Assembly (NCBI RefSeq): GCF_000963695.1
Contig: NZ_LAJX01000049.1
Span: forward strand, 1-37,454
DNA length: 37,454 nt
Reading direction: 5' to 3'
Source: Methylocucumis oryzae
GTDB taxonomy: Bacteria > Pseudomonadota > Gammaproteobacteria > Methylococcales > Methylomonadaceae
The notes under the pieces were generated by a model that was not told the origin of the DNA, made no database searches, and was given only the letters and a program-made list of their open reading frames with translations. Position numbers and translations under genes: made by a program. Below are positions 3,163-32,056 of this stretch, piece by piece (positions within the stretch are counted from its first letter, which is position 1; every line of letters begins with the position of its first letter).

Positions 3163-4531
3163 CTATTTTTCCTTTTTCGGTCTTTGCCAATTTGATATAG
3201 AAACTTGCTTGGCTCTGCTTAAGGTTAATTGATTTTCGGGGCTATTTTTAGTGATTGTTGACCCCGCGCCAATCGTTGCGTTACTACCAACCACAACCGG
3301 CGCAACTAATTGCGTATCTGAGCCAATAAATGCACCATCGCCTATAATAGTGTGATGTTTATTAACACCGTCATAATTACAGGTAATCGTTCCCGCACCA
3401 ATATTGACTTGGCACCCAACAGTGGCATCTCCCACGTAACTTAAATGATTTATTTTAGACTCATTTGCAACAGATGCTTTTTTAAGTTCAACAAAATTTC
3501 CAATATGCACATTGCTACCTAGAATCGTATCTGGCCTTAACCTTGCGTAAGGACCAATACGACAACCATCCCCTACTACTGCATTTTCAACTACGCAATT
3601 AGCTTGAATTTGGACATTATTATGAATAATAGAATTTTTTATAACTGTATTTGGGCCAATATAAACATTGTCTCCAATTGAAGCACTACCTTTCAATGAT
3701 TACATTTACATCTATTTCGACATCTTGCCCGATATGCGTTAACTCCCCTCTTAAATCAAATCTCGTCGCATCTCTAATTGTAACACCTTGACTCATCAAG
3801 GTTTCTGCTTGTTTATTTTGATAAATCCGCTCAAGCTGATGTAACTGAACTTTTGTATTAACCCCTAATACTTCATAATCAAACTCGGGCTGAACCGATG
3901 CCACATCAACCCCATCAGTAACCGCTAATTGAATAATGTCAGTTAAATAATATTCCCCTTGTGCATTGAGATTATTGAGGCAAGCTAGCCAAGACTTAAG
4001 CTTATTACCAGGAACCGCCATAATCCCTGTGTTAACCTCCTTAATTGACCTCTCTTCTGAAGTTGCATCTTTTTCTTCAATAATTTTAATTATCTGATTA
4101 TTAGTATTTCTAACAATGCGGCCGTACCCATAAGGATTTTCGACATTCATAGTGATTAATGCGATTGACTGAACAGAAACTTTAGCAATCAATTTCTCTA
4201 ATGTCGCCTTAGCAATTAACGGCACATCACCAAATAAAACCAATACAATTGAATCATCTTCTAACACATCTTGAGCCTGCATAACTGCATGTCCCGTTCC
4301 AAGCTGCTCGACCTGTAAAATCCATTTAGCAGCAATTTCTGAGTGTGCATTTATTATTTGCTCTCCACCAAAGCCATAAATTATATAAATATCATTTCCC
4401 TGAAGCGCTGTTGCCGTACTCCATACATGCATAAGCATTGACTTTCCTGCAATCGAATGCATAACCTTTGGCAACTTAGAATACATTCGCGTTCCTTTTC
4501 CAGCAGCTAATATTAATGTTTGCAATTTCAT
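3163..4531 (-). CDS. glmU: Bifunctional UDP-GlcNAc pyrophosphorylase / GlcN-1-P acetyltransferase, internal frameshift
   Basis: Catalyses the last two steps to UDP-GlcNAc: acetylation of glucosamine-1-phosphate and uridylyl transfer. The N-terminal uridylyltransferase domain shows [18 protein letters not shown]. The C-terminal half is a left-handed beta-helix of hexapeptide repeats with the acetyltransferase signature [13 protein letters not shown]. The frame is broken after [11 protein letters not shown]. Removing one base from the T-run at 3691-3693 joins it to [12 protein letters not shown] and gives one protein of 455 residues (E. coli 456). Start ATG 4531 is preceded by a GGGGA-type ribosome site directly against the T-tract of the atp terminator, so expression may rely partly on readthrough from the atp operon. 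Confidence 0.93.
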
Positions 4532-7363: not shown

Positions 7364-8906
7364 TTACCAACTATGAGTATTCACGAAAGTCGTGATAGCT
7401 GTTTGCAAGCCATTTTTGATTTCGTCGTTATAATCACCTGTCGCATTAATCTTATCCATTAGCTCAGACTGCTCAGTCTTCATGTATAAATGTAATGCTG
7501 ATTCAAATGCTAAAACCTTGCTTACTTCTATGGAATCTAAGAAGCCTTCGTTTGCTGCGAATAATGAAACAGCCATTTGCGCAACTGACATTGGCGAATA
7601 TTGTGTTTGCTTCATTAATTCAGTAACTCGGCGTCCACGCTCGATTTGTTTACGTGTACTTTCATCTAAGTCCGAAGCAAAACTGAGCAAACGCTGCTAA
7701 TTCACGATATTGAGCTAAGTCTAAACGGATACCGCCGCCTAATTTCTTAATAATCTTAGTTTGAGCAGCACCGCCAACCCGTGAAACAGATAAGCCAGCA
7801 TTAACCGCAGGACGAATGCCTGAGTTGAATAAACCCGTTTCTAAAAATATTTGACCATCGGTAATTGAGATAACGTTGGTTGGAACGAATGCAGACACGT
7901 CCCCACCTTGAGTCTCAATAATAGGTAATGCCGTTAAAGACCCTGTTTTACCTTTGACTTTACCACCTGTTAGCTTCTCTACTTCGTCAGCATTAATTCT
8001 TGCAGCCCGCTCTAGCAATCTTGAGTGCAAATAGAAAACATCCCCTGGATATGCTTCACGCCCTGGTGGTCTTCTTAATAATAATGAGACCTGACGGTAA
8101 GCCCAGGCTTGCTTAGTTAAATCATCATAAATGATTAACGCATCTTCACCTATATCCCTAAAATACTCACCCATTGCACAGCCTGTATACGGTGCAATAA
8201 ATTGCATAGCCGCAGACTCAGAGGCCGATGCCGCTACAACGATGGTATGTTCCATAGCACCGTGCTCTTCTAATTTCCTCACCACGTTTGCAATAGACGA
8301 ACGTTTTTGGCCAATCGCAACATAGATACACTTAATCCCTGTACCTTTTTGGTTGATAATCGCATCAACTGCAATCGCTGTTTTACCAGTTTGTCTGTCG
8401 CCAATAATCAATTCGCGCTGACCACGCCCAATCGGAATCATAGAATCTATTGACTTTAAGCCAATTTGCACTGGCTGATCAACTGATTGTCTTGCAATTA
8501 CCCCTGGAGCAATTTTCTCAATGGGCGAGGATTCTGTTGCATCTAACGAGCCTTTTCCATCGATTGGATTACCTAAGGCGTCAACCACTCGACCCAACAA
8601 GGACTCGCCAACAGGTACTTCTAAAATCCGTCCAGTACATTTGACAGTATCGCCTTCTGAGATATGTTGGTAAGCACCAAGCACAACAACACCGACAGAA
8701 TCTCTTTCTAAGTTTAGCGCCATACCGAAGGTATTATCAGAAAATTCAAGCATCTCACCTTGCATTGCTGCAGACAGACCATGAACTCTTACAATGCCAT
8801 CGGACACGCTGACTACAGTGCCTTCAGAATGAGCCTCAGAACTCAGATCGAAGTTTTCGATCTTCTTTTTAATCAGATCACTTATTTCAGATGGGTTTAA
8901 TTGCAT
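7364..8906 (-). CDS. atpA: ATP synthase F1 alpha subunit, one frameshift
   Basis: Non-catalytic nucleotide-binding alpha subunit of F1. It starts [19 protein letters not shown] and carries Walker A GDRQTGKT. The frame breaks after [11 protein letters not shown]. Removing one base from the A-run at 7679-7682 joins it to [15 protein letters not shown] and gives 513 residues, the same as E. coli. As written the main frame ends at 414 residues (stop at 7662) and the last ~100 residues lie in another frame. The C-terminus [23 protein letters not shown] matches the family, so no lasting decay is visible. This subunit is essential to F1, which makes a sequence error more likely than a real mutation. 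Confidence 0.96.
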
Positions 8907-15250: not shown

Positions 15251-16610
15251 CTACTGCCCCACTACTATGGTTGGTAGTTTTTGATAAATCCCGCCAAAAC
15301 CACCATTACTCATAATGACAATGTGCGCACCTTTACGCGCTTCCACTTGTAAGCGCTGTAAAATATCAGTTAGCGTCGCATACACTTCTAAGTTTGTTGC
15401 CCGCTTTTTTAATTGCGACACATCCCAATTCAAATCCGAAGGCTGAAATAAAATGGCTAAATCGGCATACTTTAGCGAATCTGCCAACGTTTCTGTATGT
15501 ATACCTAGGCGCATAGTATTCGAGCGAGGCTCAACCACAGCAATAATTTTTTCATCACCCACTTGTTGGCGCAATCCATGTAGCGTCGTCGCAATCGCGG
15601 TAGGATGATGAGCAAAGTCATCATAGATTACAGTATTATCCGTTTTGAAAATCACTTCCATGCGTCGCTTAACATTTTGAAAAGCAGATAATGCGCTAAT
15701 CGCAGCTTCGGGATTTACCCCTACACGACAAGCGGCAGCTAATGCCGATAATGCATTGCGTACATTATGATCGCCTGTTAACGCCCAGTTTACTTGACCC
15801 ATGGAGCGGCTTTGATGATAAACCATAAATTGACTGCCATCCGGTTTTAGCTTATCCGCATACCAATCAGCGGCAGAGCTTAACCCTGTCGTTTTCCGCT
15901 CCGACCAACATCCCATTGATAGCACATCAGCAATATTATCATCATCTATAGGCGCGATAATACAGCCACTGCGCGGCACTGTTCGCACCAAATGATGAAA
16001 CTGCTTTTTTATAGCCGCCAAATCAGGAAAAATATCAGCATGGTCGTATTCCAGATTATTCAAAATCGCCGTTTTAGGTCGATAGTGTACGAATTTAGAG
16101 CGTTTATCAAAAAAACGCCGAATCATACTCATCAGCCTCTATGACAAAAAAATCAGAAGCACCTAAACGCGCCGAAATACCAAAATTAAGCGGAATACCG
16201 CCAATTAAAAAGCCCGGTTCTAACCCTTGATGCTGTAAAATCCAGCTTAACATACTAGTAGTCGTGGTTTTACCATGCGTACCGGCTACCGCTAACACCT
16301 GTTTTTTGGCAAGCACATGTTCAGCCAACCATTGTGGTCCAGAGATATAAGGTAAGCCAGCATCTAACACGGCTTCGACCTCAGGATTGCCGCGCGACAG
16401 CGCATTACCAATCACCACGCAATCAGGTTTGTGCGCTATATTCTCAGCCTTATAACCCTCCATCACACGAATACCTTGTTCTGCTAACTGCGTACTCATT
16501 GGCGGATAAACATTTTGATCCGAGCCCGTAACTTGATAGCCTAGTTGCCTAGCCAGCACGGCCAAGCCACCCATAAACGTCCCACAAATACCTAAAATAT
16601 GAACTTGCAC
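15251..16610 (-). CDS. mpl: UDP-N-acetylmuramate:tripeptide ligase (murein recycling), one frameshift
   Basis: Joins recycled L-Ala-gamma-D-Glu-mDAP tripeptide to UDP-MurNAc in the cytoplasm. It starts MQVHILGICGTFMGGLAVLA, has the Mur ligase ATP loop AGTHGKTTTTSML, and the family segments EADEYDSAFFDKRSKFVHY and LEPGFLIGG. The frame breaks at a run of seven A (plus strand, 16109-16115). Removing one base joins EYDSAFF to DKRSKFVHY, exactly as in E. coli, and gives 452 residues (E. coli 457). The C-terminus MSNGGFGGIYQKL is present. Confidence 0.95.
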
Positions 16611-24101: not shown

Positions 24102-24784
24102 GGCAAAAATCCTTTACCAACGATCCGGCAAGCGTCTTTTTTAATTCGATTCTATGATTCTCCACAGCAATATAACCGCCACGTTTTTAAATCATTTAAA
24201 ATTCTAGTAACCATCTCCCTGGACGCACCGACCATGGTCGATAGCTCTTGATGAGTTAATGGATCGGTGGTTTCTTTACCATCTGGCTGCAACTTAACCA
24301 TATTAGTCAATACCTTAGCAATACGGCCATACACATCTAACAACGCCAAACTGCTGACTTGCTCGGTGGTATTACGCATACGCTTTATCACCGTTTTTAA
24401 CAATTCAATAGCAATATTAGGATTACGTTGCAAACAATCAAACAAATACTGCCTAGGGAATAAGCCGATTTTGCAGTCTTCTACGGTCATCACCGTTGCA
24501 GAGCGTGGCTGCTCATCAAATAGCGACAATTCGCCAAACGCATCACCTTCTTGTAAAAAATCTAACAAGACTTCACGCCCATCCTCATTGCTCATGAACA
24601 CCTTAAGACGACCCGATAACACGATATATAACAAATTATTAGATACATCGCTTTGATTAACCAGGGTCGAGCCTTTCGGAAAATTTTGCGTATGCATACC
24701 CGCTTCCAATACAGCGCGGTCTTCAGGTGAAAGCGATTCAAATAACGGTACTTTTTCAAGCATAAGAATAATCCTACTAAGCAC
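24088..24784 (-). CDS. Crp/Fnr family transcription regulator, C-terminus frameshifted
   Basis: Cyclic-nucleotide-type sensor domain (residues ~10-120, with GDAFGELSLFDEQPRSATV, close to the Crp phosphate-binding cassette) joined to a winged helix with HQELSTMVGASREMVTRIL. There is no Fnr-type N-terminal cysteine cluster. As written it ends LKTWRLYCCGES at 210 residues. Removing one base of the T-run at 24184-24188 restores LKRGGYIAVENHRIELKKTLAGS, the normal wing of the family, and gives about 231 residues ending at 24088. The target genes are unknown. It lies just upstream of birA and is divergent from the secreted protein at 24919. Confidence 0.9.
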
Positions 24785-25726: not shown

Positions 25727-27271
25727 TCACGGCATGGACGCCGTATTTTTTAACGTGACCCCCACGACTTCACTATTTTCCATGTTAGGTTGCTCTAAAA
25801 TACGCGCCAACCAATCTTCAGCCGTTTTCTCATTAAAACTTAATAAAACATTCGGCGCTAAGCCGAACGCTAACACAAATAATATAGGCACGCTAAGCAA
25901 GCCTAATTCAGCAGTTGATAAATCCTCAACTTTAGCCACATCTTGCCTTAGTACAGGTCCTAAAAAAGCGCGCCGACTATATAACAAGACCGCAGCAGCG
26001 CCAAGTATTGCGCCCGCAATAGTCGTCACACCTAAACTAGGATGCGCTAATAACGTACCAATGATTAATAACAGCTCCGCTGGAAAACCACTGGTCAAGG
26101 GCATACCCATACTGGCAAACGCCAAAATAAAATAACAAACCGTTAAGCGCGGCATGGTTTTAGCCAAACCACCTAAATGCACTAATTCCGTACTACCTAA
26201 GCGCTGTTGAATAAAACCGGCTAACAGCATTAGTGCACCCGCAATCATGCTGAAATTAATCAACTGCAACACTGCGCCTTGTAACCCTTGTATATTGAAT
26301 GCCGATAAACCGATTAACACCATACCAACATGGCTAATGCCGGTATAAGCCATTAACCGGCGTAAATTGGCTTGCTGTAACGCAATTAAAATACCGTAAA
26401 TCAACGCAACCGCTCCAGCCACACCCAACACCCAACTATATTCAACTGCCGCCGACGGCACTAACGGCAGAGCAAGTCGCAAAATGCCATACAGCCCTAG
26501 CTTTAACCCAACTAACAGTGCTGTTAGTTGGGTAGGCCCTTCTAAAGCTACTTGCGGCAACCAGGTATGAAAAGGCACTAGCGGCGCTTTTACCGCAAAG
26601 CCTAATAAAAATAAAAAGAATACAGAAACCTGTAGCGACTCAGGCACAAATGTCTCTAACAACACCGGCAAATCAAATGACAAATCGTGTAATTTAACAC
26701 TATGCATTTGCTCAGCATGATTAATCGCTAACAATAATATCGCCGCTAACAAAAACAAACCACCAAACAGCATAAGAAGCACGTATTTCACTGCTGCTGC
26801 ACGGCGTTTTGAACCTATGCCCCAAAGACCGATTAAAAATAGAATAGGCACTAGCGTTAATTCCCAAAATAAAAAGAACAACACCATATCTAACGCGCAA
26901 AAAATACCCATGCTCATGCTTTCCAACACCAACAACAAAGCAAAATGCAAGCGCGTTAAAGGCAGAATCGAACGTTGACACGCCAAAATTGCTAGCAACG
27001 TTAATAATGCCGTCATGGGTAAAAACAGAATTGACAAACCATCAATTCCGACAGAATACGCAATATTAAGCGTTGGAATCCAAGCATAGTGCTCTTGCAA
27101 CTGAAAACCAGCATCTGCCCGATTAAACAACACCAACGCCATAAAGCTCAACAGCAATTCTAACGCCGCTATCCAGGTAGCCAACCTCTGCACATATCGA
27201 TTATCAGGAAACCCCACGACAAACAATGCACCTAATAACGGAACCACAATAATCAAACTGAGTACAGGCAT
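25727..27271 (-). CDS. nuoM: NuoM-like proton-pumping antiporter subunit (copy 2)
   Basis: Complex I antiporter-type membrane subunit of 514 residues with about 14 helices. Canonical proton-path residues are present: Glu in FLFWELTLVPILFLIGLWG, Lys in GFAVKAPLVPFHTWLP, Lys in LVGLKLGLYGILRLALP, and Glu in TSGFPAELLLIIG. The N-terminal signature YSVGIDGLSILFLPMTALL is typical of NuoM. It is the last gene of a three-gene set (NuoL-like, NuoM-like 1, this one). No nuoN or peripheral-arm gene follows; the next gene is convergent. It may serve a variant complex I or an independent ion transporter. Confidence 0.9.
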   Translation of the reverse strand: MPVLSLIIVVPLLGALFVVGFPDNRYVQRLATWIAALELLLSFMALVLFNRADAGFQLQEHYAWIPTLNIAYSVGIDGLSILFLPMTALLTLLAILACQRSILPLTRLHFALLLVLESMSMGIFCALDMVLFFLFWELTLVPILFLIGLWGIGSKRRAAAVKYVLLMLFGGLFLLAAILLLAINHAEQMHSVKLHDLSFDLPVLLETFVPESLQVSVFFLFLLGFAVKAPLVPFHTWLPQVALEGPTQLTALLVGLKLGLYGILRLALPLVPSAAVEYSWVLGVAGAVALIYGILIALQQANLRRLMAYTGISHVGMVLIGLSAFNIQGLQGAVLQLINFSMIAGALMLLAGFIQQRLGSTELVHLGGLAKTMPRLTVCYFILAFASMGMPLTSGFPAELLLIIGTLLAHPSLGVTTIAGAILGAAAVLLYSRRAFLGPVLRQDVAKVEDLSTAELGLLSVPILFVLAFGLAPNVLLSFNEKTAEDWLARILEQPNMENSEVVGVTLKNTASMP

Positions 27272-27316
27272 GATGAAATAATAGATAAACCTAAACGAGG
27301 AGGAATTGTTTTACTG

Positions 27317-28873
27317 TTATTCTGGCAACACAGCGTCAGGCTCAACATCATTAGACTGATGCATAGGAAAATCCCGCTCAATAGCTGTCGCATCTTGGTC
27401 GATAAAATTGAGCCAAGGCGTGGTATAAAATCCGGTACCTATCAACAGCAAACAAATAACCAAAGCAATAATCCGCTCCGATTGTACCGGATGATGTGAA
27501 GCACTATCAGGCTGTTGAAAGCGCTTAGGCGAAGCAATAAAAAATTTGCTGAAACGCGCGTAACAAAAAGGCAGCAGCCAATACATTACCCAATAAAATG
27601 CCTATCGCGAGAAACCAACCATCTTCATCAATAATACCCTCAACCAATAAATGAGCGGCATCAAAGCCTGGCGTACCTGGCATAACAATAGTACTCAACG
27701 CAGAAATTAAAAATAACAACGCAATCGTGGCATTGCTATCAAATAAACCGCCTAAACGTGGAATAAACGCCGTTCGAGTACGCTCATAAATCAAGCCAAC
27801 GCTAAACAACATCCCTGCGGTAGCCAAGCCATACGCGACCGACAATAATAAACTACCTTCCAAACCAAACTCGTTAAAACAAAACACACCAATCACTAAC
27901 ATGCCAGTATGACTTAACACCGCAAATGCTAATAAACGCCGCACATTAATTTTGCATTAACGCTAACAAAGCGCCGTAGAACACGCTAATCACGCCTAAT
28001 GCAATAACAAAATCGCCCCAATCTTCCGCCGTACCAGGCAACATAGGCAATACAAAACGAATTACGGCATAAAGTCCTAACTTCAACCCGGCTAAAAAAA
28101 TAGCCGCACTCGCCACCGTGCCATGCTCGGCTAACAACGGCAGCCAACCATGAAACGGAAACAACGGCATACGAATCGAAAAACCAAACAGCAATAAAAT
28201 GAAAATTAAACGTTTCATCATGTAAATACGCGTTATTTTGTTTCAAAGTCAACCAATCGAACGTCAAATCATGGTCCGAACCGACTAAACCAAACGCCAA
28301 AAACAAAAAGCCCGCTAACGTCATCAGTAAACCGCTGCCCCAATACTGCAACAATAGCGTCACCACCCAACGCCGATTCTGCCCGGTACCGGCATGAACG
28401 GTTAGCAACACCACCGGCACTAACTCCAACACAGTCCAAAACCAAAACTGCATAATATTCAATGCGGTAAATGCGCCAATTAACACCGTTTCATAACCTA
28501 GCAAACAGGCAATAAAAAAATTTATCCCCCACATGCCGAGTAATTAACGTATACACCAAACGCTAAAAATGTGAGCACGGCAGTAAGCGGTATAAACAAA
28601 ATACTGGCACCATCAACTCCGACGCAATAACTCATACCCGCAAATTGTAAAACGTTCGACCAAATGTAGCCCCGGCTTACCGGCATCGAACACCAACAAT
28701 AAATAACCGCTTAACAGTACTGTCAAAAAGCTACCGATAAACCCAATCCGTAATGCCTTAGCGGCCGTCGAAGCAAATACGATAAACATCATCGTCAGTA
28801 ACGGCGTCAGCATTAAGCTAGACAATAAAGGGAAAGCTGTCGCGTCAGCCCAGGAATAAACCGCCATGTTCAT
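27317..28873 (-). CDS. NuoM-like subunit (copy 1), frame broken five times
   Basis: Second NuoM-type antiporter subunit. The reading frame is interrupted five times: one extra base each at 28642-28644, 28213-28215, 27950-27953 and 27539-27544, and one missing base in the C-run at 28526-28530. With these undone it reads as 517 residues without stops, including GMSYCVGVDGASILFIPLTA, FGFSIRMPLFPFHGWLP, LAGLKLGLYAVIRFVLP and MQINVRRLLAFAVLSHTG. Several residues that carry protons in NuoM are altered: the TM5 Glu lies two places later (WTVLELVP), the TM7 Lys is Arg (FSIRMP), and the TM12-type GFxxE is GFDAAH. Start ATG 28873 lies 3 bases after the NuoL-like stop. Five indels raise real decay as an option, but the clean restored protein argues for errors. 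Confidence 0.8.
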
Positions 28874-28876
28874 GAA

Positions 28877-30433
28877 TTAAAATGCCACTAAAAAAGTAAT
28901 ACAAACAAATAAAACCAAATAACGCGGACGCAATATCACTTGCTCGAACTTATTGGCTAAATGTCCTAACTGCTTACCGGCATGTATGGCATCCTTACCG
29001 ACACCACGTAACACAAAACGGTCTTCTACCCAATGCACAAATTTAGCCGCCCAGACAGTTAAGACGCCGGCAAAACCGCTGCCATGAGCAAAATCATCGA
29101 GCTCATCATTTAATCTTGCGCCAAGCCTTTCCTCTTCCAGTTGCGCTAATGATGATAAACGTCCAATGGCGGGTGCAGGCACACCAATGATGTTATCAAC
29201 CACATGGTCGTCAAAATAGCTTAAATCTTGTGACAAACCACGGATAGGGTTAATCAACGCCCAGGTCATCACCTGGTCCAACCAAAATTGCTGCAATGAA
29301 ACGATATAAAGCCAACCCGGCAAGGTCTTTCTTTCGGATGCACTCAAAACTGGCTTAAACTGCTGTAATAACGAAGGTGCGGTTAATAATTGCCAGCAAC
29401 GCACAACCGCATGTGCGCAAAGATGCCAGCTTGCGATGACCCATAATCCTAAGCTACATTCCACAAACATCAAGCCTAGATGTCCAGCAATAGAGAATGC
29501 CAATAAGCTCTTAATATCGGTTTGCGTTTGTACAACGACAAAACCATAAACCGCTGTAGCAAAACCTACTAAACCAATAACCGCTCTAGCAAATGGCGAT
29601 TGCTCTATCACCGGTGCCATTAGACATAATAAAAATACCCCTGAATGCACCATGACCGCACCATAAAATGCTGCACTCGATGGCGTAGGGCCTTCCATTG
29701 CGCGCGCCAGCCACGGCGAAAACGGCAATTGCGCCGACTTAGCCGCTGCTGCTAAAGCAAAACACAGACTAATGCCCGTCGCCTCGCCTATCGTCAACTC
29801 CTGAGCCGCCTCTTGTAAGGTTTGCCAATTCACACTATCTAACCAGGCATAGCACAAACCAATACCAACAATAAAACCCACATCGCCCACACGGTTGGTC
29901 AAATAAACACGTGTTGCATTTTCAGTCGCCACAGGTCGTTGATAAGAGTACGCAATTAATAAATACGAACACACCCCGGCAACTTCCCAACCAATAAATG
30001 TGTTCAGCACATTTGCCGACAACAGCAAAAACATCATCGCAGCGTCGAACAAACAAAACACGAAAAAAAACCGGTAAAAACCGGTTTCTCTATGTAAATA
30101 ATTAACCGCAAATCTCGCAATCACGGCCAGCAATAGCGAAAACAGCGCAGCTAGCCTAATGCCGAGACCACTGGTTAAAAAATTAAATTTAACAATGAAA
30201 TGCTCGCTACTAAACCAAACACCGGCACTAAAATAACCTTGGTTAGAACCTAAACAGTCACTGATGAGTAACGTCAACGCCATTAAGCAAGACAAACTTA
30301 GCGCGCCACACGCCAGTTCCGCCACCATAATTTCACGACGCTCGCCGATGAAAAGCCCAGCCACATGCCCTATGCCAATAACAACGGCAGCCAATAACGG
30401 CAAAAACGGAATCAATAAAACTAAAGCATCCAT
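28877..30433 (-). CDS. Short NuoL-like antiporter subunit
   Basis: NuoL/DabB-class membrane subunit, 518 residues against about 613 for E. coli NuoL. Present: FIGWEVAGVCSYLLIAY (TM5 Glu), LTNRVGDVGFIVGIGL, AAAAKSAQLPFSPWLARAMEGPTPSSA (TM7 Lys) and QTQTDIKSLLAFSIAGHLG. After HLCAHAVVRCWQLLTAPSLL the protein jumps to a C-terminal part like that of NuoL (FWLDQVMTWALINPIRGLS). A block of internal helices (about TM10-TM14) is therefore missing, with no stop or frameshift visible there. It is the first gene of the three-gene set. The pairing partner could be a variant complex I or a DabA-type protein; no DUF2309 gene is in the window. Confidence 0.88.
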   Translation of the reverse strand: MDALVLLIPFLPLLAAVVIGIGHVAGLFIGERREIMVAELACGALSLSCLMALTLLISDCLGSNQGYFSAGVWFSSEHFIVKFNFLTSGLGIRLAALFSLLLAVIARFAVNYLHRETGFYRFFFVFCLFDAAMMFLLLSANVLNTFIGWEVAGVCSYLLIAYSYQRPVATENATRVYLTNRVGDVGFIVGIGLCYAWLDSVNWQTLQEAAQELTIGEATGISLCFALAAAAKSAQLPFSPWLARAMEGPTPSSAAFYGAVMVHSGVFLLCLMAPVIEQSPFARAVIGLVGFATAVYGFVVVQTQTDIKSLLAFSIAGHLGLMFVECSLGLWVIASWHLCAHAVVRCWQLLTAPSLLQQFKPVLSASERKTLPGWLYIVSLQQFWLDQVMTWALINPIRGLSQDLSYFDDHVVDNIIGVPAPAIGRLSSLAQLEEERLGARLNDELDDFAHGSGFAGVLTVWAAKFVHWVEDRFVLRGVGKDAIHAGKQLGHLANKFEQVILRPRYLVLFVCITFLVAF

Positions 30434-30684: not shown

Positions 30685-31937
30685 CTAATCTCTTAAATGC
30701 CCCTGCCCATAAGCCACCCACTTATAAGTCGTTAACTCATTAGGTCCAACGGGGCCGCGCACATGCAACTTATCAGTGCTAATACCAACCACCGACCCTA
30801 AGCCATAATCGCCACCGCCAGACAAACGCGTAGAGGCATTAATCATCACAGACGCCGAGTCCACTTCAGCCTCAAACTGCTCTGCCAAACGCAAACTTTG
30901 CGTGACAATCCCATCGGTATGACCTGAGCCATACTGATTAATATGGCTAATCGCGTGAGTTATTCCATCGACAATCTTAATCGACAAAATAGGCGCTAAA
31001 TACTCCGTATGCCAATCCTCTTCATTAGCTAACGCTATATCCGGCAATAGTTTTTGCGTCAACGCACAACCCCGTAACTCAATGCCATTAGCACTAAACG
31101 CAGCCTGTAATAACGGCAATAACGTATCGGCACACTGCCTATCGACTAATAATGTCTCTAACGCATTACACACTTGCACACTTTGACATTTAGAATTCAC
31201 TGCTAACGCGACCGCTTGCTCAGCTATCGCATCGGCAGCCAAATACAAATGACAAATACCGTCATAATGCTTAATCACCGGAATACGCGTACCTTCTGCA
31301 ATACGCTTAATCAGGCTTTTACCGCCTCGTGGAATGAGCACATCGATATAATCCTCCATCTTAAGCAGCTCGCCCACAGCTTCATGTCCGGGGATACGAA
31401 TAATTTGAATAGCGTTCTCAGGCAAACCTGCTTTGACCAAACCCTCAATCATTGCATCCGCCAATACCGTATTCGTCTGCAAAGCTTCAGAGCCGCCGCG
31501 TAAAATCACTGCATTACCGCTTTTAATACAGACTCCGGCCGAATCCGTCGTCACATTAGGTCGTGATTCATAAATAATGCCAATCACGCCTAATGGCACT
31601 GATTTCTTATACACTTTAAGCCCGACTGGATTAGTGTGTCCTGCCAAAATACGATTTAACGGGTCGGGCAATTGGGCAACTTTCTTTAGCTTGATAACAT
31701 GTATTGAAAGGTTTTTTCATCAATAGTTAACCGCTTGACCATTGCCTCAGACTGACCCTCATCCTTAGCTTTAACGACGTCTTCAGCATTAACCGCCAAC
31801 ACCTCATGCTTAACCGCTGCTAACGCTTCTGCCATATTCGCCAGCGCCAAATTACGCAACGCTTCAGGTATCACGGCGAGCTGACGCGCCGCCACACGAC
31901 TCTGTTCTGCCAAGGTTTGTACACTATTAACCGACAT
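30685..31937 (-). CDS. proA: Gamma-glutamyl phosphate reductase, one frameshift
   Basis: Second step of proline synthesis: reduces gamma-glutamyl phosphate to glutamate semialdehyde with NADPH. Aldehyde-dehydrogenase-fold features: VPLGVIGIIYESRPNVTTDSAG, the catalytic Cys in VNSKCQSVQVCNALETLLVD, and the C-terminal GPVGPNELTTYKWVAYGQGHLR. The frame breaks near 31688-31690. Adding one base there joins FQYMLSS to LKKVAQLPDPLNRIL. I chose ATG 31937 (MSVNSVQTLAEQ), which gives 417 residues, the E. coli length; a GTG or TTG a few codons upstream is possible. proB is not in the window. The stop abuts repeat copy 1. Confidence 0.94.
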
Positions 31938-32056
31938 TGCAATCACCAACTTATAAAATAAGCGCTAGCATAAAAGACTTTGGCTAGCTCATACCAGACA
32001 TTATTGAAACCAGTTTTCTACACTTAAATGCAAAAAAGTGCTCAAAATCCTGAATC

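Follow-up and report, generated by a model that had tools for sequence, protein, structure and literature searches.

A NuoL-NuoM-NuoM-like gene trio of Methylocucumis oryzae is probably part of a five-gene, DabA-linked CO2-hydration system

The stretch of DNA analysed here (the window) is a whole contig of 37,454 bases (C334) from the genome of Methylocucumis oryzae (G000), in which three adjacent minus-strand coding regions specify one NuoL-like and two NuoM-like subunits, named L1, M2 and M3. This trio is probably the L1-M2-M3 part of a five-subunit, DAB-type, ion-gradient-coupled CO2-hydration complex, in which it would be joined by a further NuoM-like subunit, M1, and by DabA. Assembly of the five products, the direction of transport, the ion that is moved and the presence of all M subunits in a single complex are suggested by gene content, gene order, co-occurrence, relationships and residue patterns.

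Results

The L1-M2-M3 locus

The three coding regions are as follows.
28877..30433, minus strand: L1, DabB/NuoL-like subunit; open frame of 518 amino acids; PF00361, 139.7 bits
27317..28873, minus strand: M2, NuoM-like subunit, broken by frameshifts in the present assembly; PF00361 matches in two fragments
25727..27271, minus strand: M3, NuoM-like subunit; open frame of 514 amino acids; PF00361, 192.1 bits; TIGR01972, 429.4 bits

The PF00361 matches in the window (L1, M3 and the two M2 fragments) all lie well over the cut-off. Mrp models scored the trio well under the NuoM and NuoL models, no search aimed at the MrpB, C, E, F and G genes having been made. The first-pass annotation of the window had described an isolated module of three genes, and the three neighbouring coding regions and their spacings of 3 and 45 bases are confirmed. 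M2, however, is not a single open frame but lies in at least four frame-shifted pieces, and L1, although similar to NuoL, is not a full NuoL, being shorter and gapped over the segment of transmembrane helix 12 (TM12) that holds K399 and D400. No nuo genes flank the trio, as had been stated, so that the module is indeed isolated on this contig, but its partner genes, M1 and DabA, were found on two further contigs of G000. The best matches of L1 among solved structures were NdhF and NuoL, and DabB2 (9rd0_B) was matched as well; a structure prediction of L1 from two sequences had a mean predicted local distance difference test score of 34.1.

Co-occurrence of L1, M1 and DabA

Sixty-one genomes, consisting of G000 and 60 relatives, were searched with minimum scores of 414 bits for L1 (next match, 177 bits) and 492 bits for M1 (next match, 305). 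The first-pass annotation had proposed looking for the trio in other Methylococcales, and L1 was found in 35 of the 61 genomes. All 35 also carry DabA of one type, and 34 carry M1, which at that score occurs in none of the 26 others. DabA stands beside M1 on one contig in 33 of the 35 and across a contig break in G000, and G010, an assembly of about 950 contigs, is without M1. Shortened forms of DabA were assigned to this type by their position beside M1.

Essentially the same association was observed in a sample of the class (369 genomes), where L1 (E values up to 1e-65) was present in 17 genomes and M1 above 460 bits in 16, all within those 17; in the seventeenth, G292, M1 is cut by the contig start. 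In a sample of the phylum, L1 was present in 36 of 398 genomes. At most three or four candidates per genome were scored in these two samples. The next protein below the M1 threshold, at 393 bits, is G111:C165:5724-7175, from a genome without L1 at the threshold used, and is possibly a further variant.

A fixed five-gene order and its repeated splitting

In 18 gene sets from 18 relatives, M1, DabA, L1, M2 and M3 follow one another in this order on one strand (G009, the second copy of G011, G017, G020, G022, G023, G026, G028, G030, G032, G033, G034, G039, G046, G051, G054, G057 and G060). About 1.1 kb separates DabA from L1 in G060, and M2 is in two pieces in G026. The large protein of the set is DabA (PF10070, E 2e-253); M1, like the trio, belongs to PF00361.

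The same arrangement is found outside the taxonomic order of the window, from where 30 L1 loci were fetched: 15 from the class sample (all besides G000 and G039) and 15 of the 35 besides G000 from the phylum sample. The count of 30 leaves aside two more stretches, L186 (part of G439) and L187 (from G007). All five genes stand in the same order at 20 of the 30 loci, one of which (L158) has M3 in two open reading frames (ORFs), and another five (L163, L168, L176, L177 and L178), truncated by contig ends, agree with it as far as they extend. The remaining five differ. For G258 and G128, which belong to one genus, DabA is followed by an L1-M2 fusion in one frame, with M1 elsewhere (M3 was not searched). 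For G134 the order is M1-L1-M2-M3, for G565 it is M1, an M3-like gene, L1 and M2, and for G388 L1 stands alone; a DabA of about 1,090-1,130 amino acids is encoded elsewhere in each of these three genomes, adjoining M1 in G388.

For the window genome, contig C367 carries M1 and the first part of DabA at its end, contig C137 opens inside DabA, and the two ends overlap by 144 bases at 98.6%. On C137, the gene after DabA lies on the opposite strand and is not L1. Since, in addition, the gene upstream of L1 in the window is another one (presumably proA), the split between M1-DabA and the trio in G000 is not an assembly gap. Among the 20 genomes of the genus of the window (G000-G019), 17 have the trio and DabA on different contigs or far apart, with contig breaks checked in part of these 17. 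In G009 and G017 the trio and DabA lie together, and G011 carries one joined and one split set. In G019, a single contig, the two parts are about 430 kb apart, and in G007 L1, M1-DabA and M3 are at three places on one contig, M2 not having been located. Several breaks thus seem to have occurred in the operon without loss of its genes from the genome. In the genus of the window, where the operon is mostly split into M1-DabA and L1-M2-M3, the pieces would be kept by shared function and not by linkage.

Placement of the subunits in trees

In a maximum-likelihood tree of 103 antiporter-like proteins, which included neither an authentic NuoM of a 2M complex I nor an Mrp sequence, L1 did not fall with NuoL, as its first-pass name would have it. 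L1 and DabB are split from NuoL and the rest with a support of 96, and L1 groups with the DabB type of contig C201 with a support of 100. M1, M2 and M3 are each monophyletic (100); M2 pairs with M3 (100), all three group together (92), and NuoM is the sister of the whole group (100). That NuoM was duplicated recently was considered and rejected, because M1, M2 and M3 form supported clades that each hold several families and, by kinship labels, more than one class. For DabA, a FastTree from which the nine sequences with an incomplete zinc site were dropped placed the 53 zinc-intact sequences in one clade (0.835), grouped with the C201 type (0.973).

As a separate observation, locus L196 (G021:C91) encodes a pair of antiporter-like proteins, with open frames of 766 and 508 amino acids, whose long branches belong to none of the Nuo, Dab and Hyf groups.

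Channel residues and the zinc site of DabA

L1 is similar to NuoL over residues 1-365 and has a C-terminal region of its own, which ends in a conserved RPRYLVLFV stretch. Most L1 sequences retain E144, R175, D178, K229, H334 and H338 of NuoL, and all 64 aligned sequences (overlapping loci not removed) are gapped over K399 and D400. The canonical residues E-K-K-E are present in 51 of 58 M1 sequences. For M3, they are present in all 18 counted sequences of the order whose DabA is intact and, outside the order, in 24 of 25, where the one exception is gapped at the fourth position. In the window, P0002 and P0001 carry canonical residues, and P0001, which is M3, reads E-K-K-E. In all 60 M2 sequences the TM7 Lys is replaced by Arg and the TM8 Lys is retained, and none has Glu at either of the two remaining positions (two sequences have a gap at one of them).

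The zinc ligands and the Asp of DabA2 (C351, D353, H524 and C539) align with an intact C, D, H and C in the DabA of G000. This C-D-H-C set is intact in 53 of 62 sequences, namely 26 of 35 from the order, G000 included, and 27 of 27 from elsewhere; this count omits G012 and three loci beyond the order that are truncated at contig ends. In the other nine sequences of the order the ligands are partly or wholly lost, in several through loss of the C-terminal half. These DabA-like proteins, all beside M1, are at L092, L093, L096, L094, L095, L060, L090, L091 and L057 (G006, G007, G009, G014, G015, G017, G018, G019 and G026) and are, from their sequences, apparent pseudo-enzymes.

The loss of zinc ligands is accompanied by losses in the membrane subunits. 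The TM5 Glu of L1 (E144) is lost in 8 of the 9 genomes with a zinc-less DabA and in 3 of 27 with an intact one (Fisher p 4e-5, shared ancestry ignored), and a key Glu of M3 is lost in 6 of 7 and 0 of 18 genomes, respectively (p 4e-5, shared ancestry ignored). G012 was taken as intact in these counts, though its DabA is cut. In G006, G007, G018 and G019 the genes in question are not linked to DabA, and of these four only G018 retains the L1 Glu.

At the position of Leu658 of DabA2, His is found in all 53 zinc-intact sequences and in four C201-type DabA proteins of G000 and relatives, and Leu in four DabA2-type proteins. G000 has two further DabA-DabB loci, L010 (C155) and L011 (C201), one of the Leu type and one of the His type, in both of which DabA was matched in several pieces. 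At L213:4780-13274 (G044:C22), a Leu-type DabA of 1115 amino acids is followed by a NuoL-clade protein (683 amino acids) and two NuoM-clade proteins (495 and 561 amino acids). This appears to be a second, independent multi-antiporter DabA locus, in which L-M-M subunits of the complex I type were recruited to a DabA.

Complex I is an improbable partner of the trio

The first-pass annotation had suggested that the trio might be an extra pump arm of a 2M-type complex I, or else a separate ion transporter, and had proposed searching the rest of the genome for a nuo cluster. The complex I 49-kDa family (PF00346, NuoD) has no match in G000, a genome 88.56% complete in which the search for Nuo subunits covered NuoD and the PF00361 proteins. 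The seven PF00361 matches of G000 comprise the four in the window, M1, and two genes that adjoin DabA genes and group with DabB. Across the 61 genomes, 31 have some PF00346 match. Among the 35 L1 genomes, six have a match with E below 1e-100, 11 have only weaker matches at about 1e-29 to 1e-34, and 18 have none. The weaker matches are read as hydrogenase-like; those in G019 and G008 lie close to HyfB- and HyfF-like genes.

That the trio serves as an arm of a 2M complex I, with the other subunits encoded elsewhere, has therefore become extremely improbable. The L-M-M composition and the sister position of M1-M3 to NuoM would suit such an arm, but no NuoD was found in the 88.56% complete genome, 29 of the 35 trio genomes have no strong one, the PF00361 proteins of G000 are M1, the trio and two DabB-like genes, L1 groups with DabB rather than NuoL, the M proteins have clades of their own, and the trio is constantly tied to DabA. 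The opposite outcome that had been envisaged, a complete nuo cluster together with placement of the trio among Mrp or hydrogenase subunits, was not found either; the partner is DabA. A separate ion-translocating role remains plausible. That the trio would exert it alone as an antiporter, with the link to DabA a matter of history, is nevertheless very unlikely. The trio is physically apart from DabA in G000 and in most genomes of its genus, but it co-occurs with DabA in every L1 genome and with M1 in all save one despite several separate operon breaks, key residues are lost jointly with those of DabA, and no genome with L1-M2-M3 and without DabA was seen among those checked.

Frameshifts in M2 and the neighbourhood of the trio

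A tblastn search with the intact orthologue of G016 places M2 in successive frames from 28873 down to 27317, in four main pieces of 88, 80, 68 and 57% identity, the last of which is disturbed by internal frame changes. Against the same genome, L1 is 67% and M3 62% identical. Elsewhere in the window, adjacent or overlapping ORF pairs at 3163-4531, 7364-8906, 15251-16610 and 30685-31949, which we take to be glmU, atpA, mpl and proA, resemble single split genes, with summed lengths as expected of single genes. Given these other split pairs in the contig, indel errors in the assembly are probably, rather than a pseudogene, the cause of the M2 breaks. There is a small chance that the G000 copy of the trio is decaying and non-functional, as the several frames of M2 would suggest; this would be compatible with the reading proposed here for the family. 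Against it, two of the M2 pieces are closer to the intact relative than L1 or M3 is (the other two stand at 68 and 57%), further genes of the window look split as well, and L1, M1, M3 and DabA of G000 retain their key residues.

Downstream of the trio, 24152-24784 encodes what is presumably a Crp/Fnr-like regulator; a protein that shares 92% identity with it is encoded close to the split trio in G011, at L054:2462-3043. From this shared neighbour, the location of the trio may be common to G000 and G011.

Discussion

Proposed mechanism

For the two-subunit DAB2, it has been proposed from structure and mutants (PMC13144422) that proton flow through DabB2 is coupled to CO2 hydration in DabA2 and that a DabA helix with Glu444 completes the channel. 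By analogy, DabA of the five-gene set would be a member of the carbonic-anhydrase-like family with intact zinc ligands, and L1 its DabB-type membrane partner. M1 and M3 would be NuoM-like translocation modules with canonical residues, and M2 an altered module. Flow of an ion (H+ or Na+) through M1, M3 and the L1-based unit would drive vectorial hydration of CO2, so that inorganic carbon would be stored as bicarbonate, as proposed for DAB2. The L1-M2 fusions make it attractive to guess that M2 completes the half-channel of L1.

RuBisCO was found in all six f4 trio carriers, and the 29 trio genomes in the family of the window gave no match. In the latter family, a RuBisCO-based CO2-concentrating mechanism is therefore not the setting in which the complex would act, and bicarbonate would feed other carboxylations or serve pH and ion balance.

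Several observations, the absence of RuBisCO in that family among them, weigh against a CO2-hydration complex. Nine relatives retain the membrane genes alongside a DabA that lacks part or all of the zinc site, and M1 stands outside the pattern of joint loss, its E-K-K-E being kept in 6 of 9 genomes with a zinc-less DabA and lost in 4 of 26 with an intact one. The counts of joint loss are also uncorrected for shared ancestry. SulP or carbonic anhydrase genes lie nearby at 7 of the 18 loci of the order, but the same queries yielded no carbonic anhydrase and one weak SulP match at the 30 outside loci. Moreover, Glu444, which DAB2 requires, is not conserved in this type of DabA in a loose alignment judged by eye, its position being taken by P in G000 and by D, N, P, T, G, Y or other residues elsewhere. 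The coupling of DAB2 cannot, for this reason, be transferred unchanged.

Some of these points would suit an ion or bicarbonate exchanger in which DabA binds CO2 and does not hydrate it. According to PMC13144422, MpsAB has been proposed as a Na+/HCO3- symporter. The presence of canonical residues in two NuoM-like modules would point to movement of more than one ion, genomes that lost the zinc site still have the membrane genes, and some loci have SulP neighbours. Such an exchanger is nonetheless unlikely, since more than four-fifths of the checked DabA sequences of this type retain all zinc ligands, and L1 and M3 erode in most genomes in which the ligands are lost. A bolder picture, which is possible but doubtful, is that of a redox-free, complex-I-like machine, in which one DabA that hydrates CO2 is served by four antiporter-like subunits and the truncated L1 forms a composite ion channel with M2, which lacks the key glutamates. 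In some relatives among the methanotrophs, this machine would have lost its zinc enzyme, leaving an ion-translocating complex of another kind that carries a pseudo-DabA. The five-subunit CO2-hydration complex is favoured as the probable reading by the conserved gene order, the co-occurrence with DabA and M1, the placement of L1 with DabB, the L1-M2 fusions, the intact zinc ligands in the DabA of G000, the joint loss of residues, and the SulP or carbonic anhydrase neighbours at some loci of the order.

Implications

The solved DAB2 pump has one membrane subunit, and a widespread form with three more would show how ion-pumping bricks set the energy that is paid per CO2. The five-gene form would also be a redox-free test bed for the antiporter subunits of complex I. 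The lineages that have lost part or all of the zinc site are natural, ready-made mutants of the system. In addition, the results correct automatic annotations, for instance as 'NADH-quinone oxidoreductase subunit M', where no complex I was found in the genome, and they suggest active CO2 capture in Methylococcales relatives, presumably methane oxidisers, that have no RuBisCO. No functional study of the five-gene form was found in the literature searched, which lacked most subscription journals.

Comparison with known systems

A 2M complex I has two M-like subunits besides an L-like one, and the present set is alike in this respect. It differs in that no other complex I subunit was found and in that the M proteins lie in clades of their own, in a tree without an authentic 2M NuoM. 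The cyanobacterial NDH-1 CO2-uptake complexes, in which NdhF3 and NdhD3 act with Cup proteins, likewise tie several antiporter-like subunits to CO2 hydration. These are built, however, on a redox-linked complex I core, whereas DabA is the sole soluble partner seen here.

For DAB2 of Halothiobacillus neapolitanus (DabA2-DabB2; PMC13144422), the likeness lies in a PF10070 DabA with a C-D-H-C zinc site and in the membership of L1 in the DabB clade, L1 and DabB2 both resembling NuoL at first and departing from it once the TM12 region is reached. The present set differs in its three added NuoM-like subunits and in a DabA of mostly about 1,040-1,180 amino acids (stop to stop), compared with 870. It also differs in the His in place of Leu658, in the absence of a conserved finger Glu444, and in that L1 mostly retains Glu144 of NuoL, which corresponds to Ile151 in DabB2.

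Another close system is 'clade C' of the YbcC/NuoL operons in the COGNAT survey of 2017 (PMC5700660). In its accessible text, nuoL is preceded in these operons by ybcC (DabA, COG3002), additional genes for NuoM (COG1008) and SulP (COG0659) are present, and the number of membrane genes is suggested to set, possibly, the number of ions moved. That text gives no fixed five-gene order, operon splitting or channel-residue analysis, and some members of the clade may be the same operons as those described here. DabA-NuoL operons with extra NuoM were thus already known from that text, as a little-characterised kind. What the present analysis contributes is the fixed five-gene order, its spread, its repeated splitting with co-retention of the genes, the residue types of the subunits, and the linked loss of residues.

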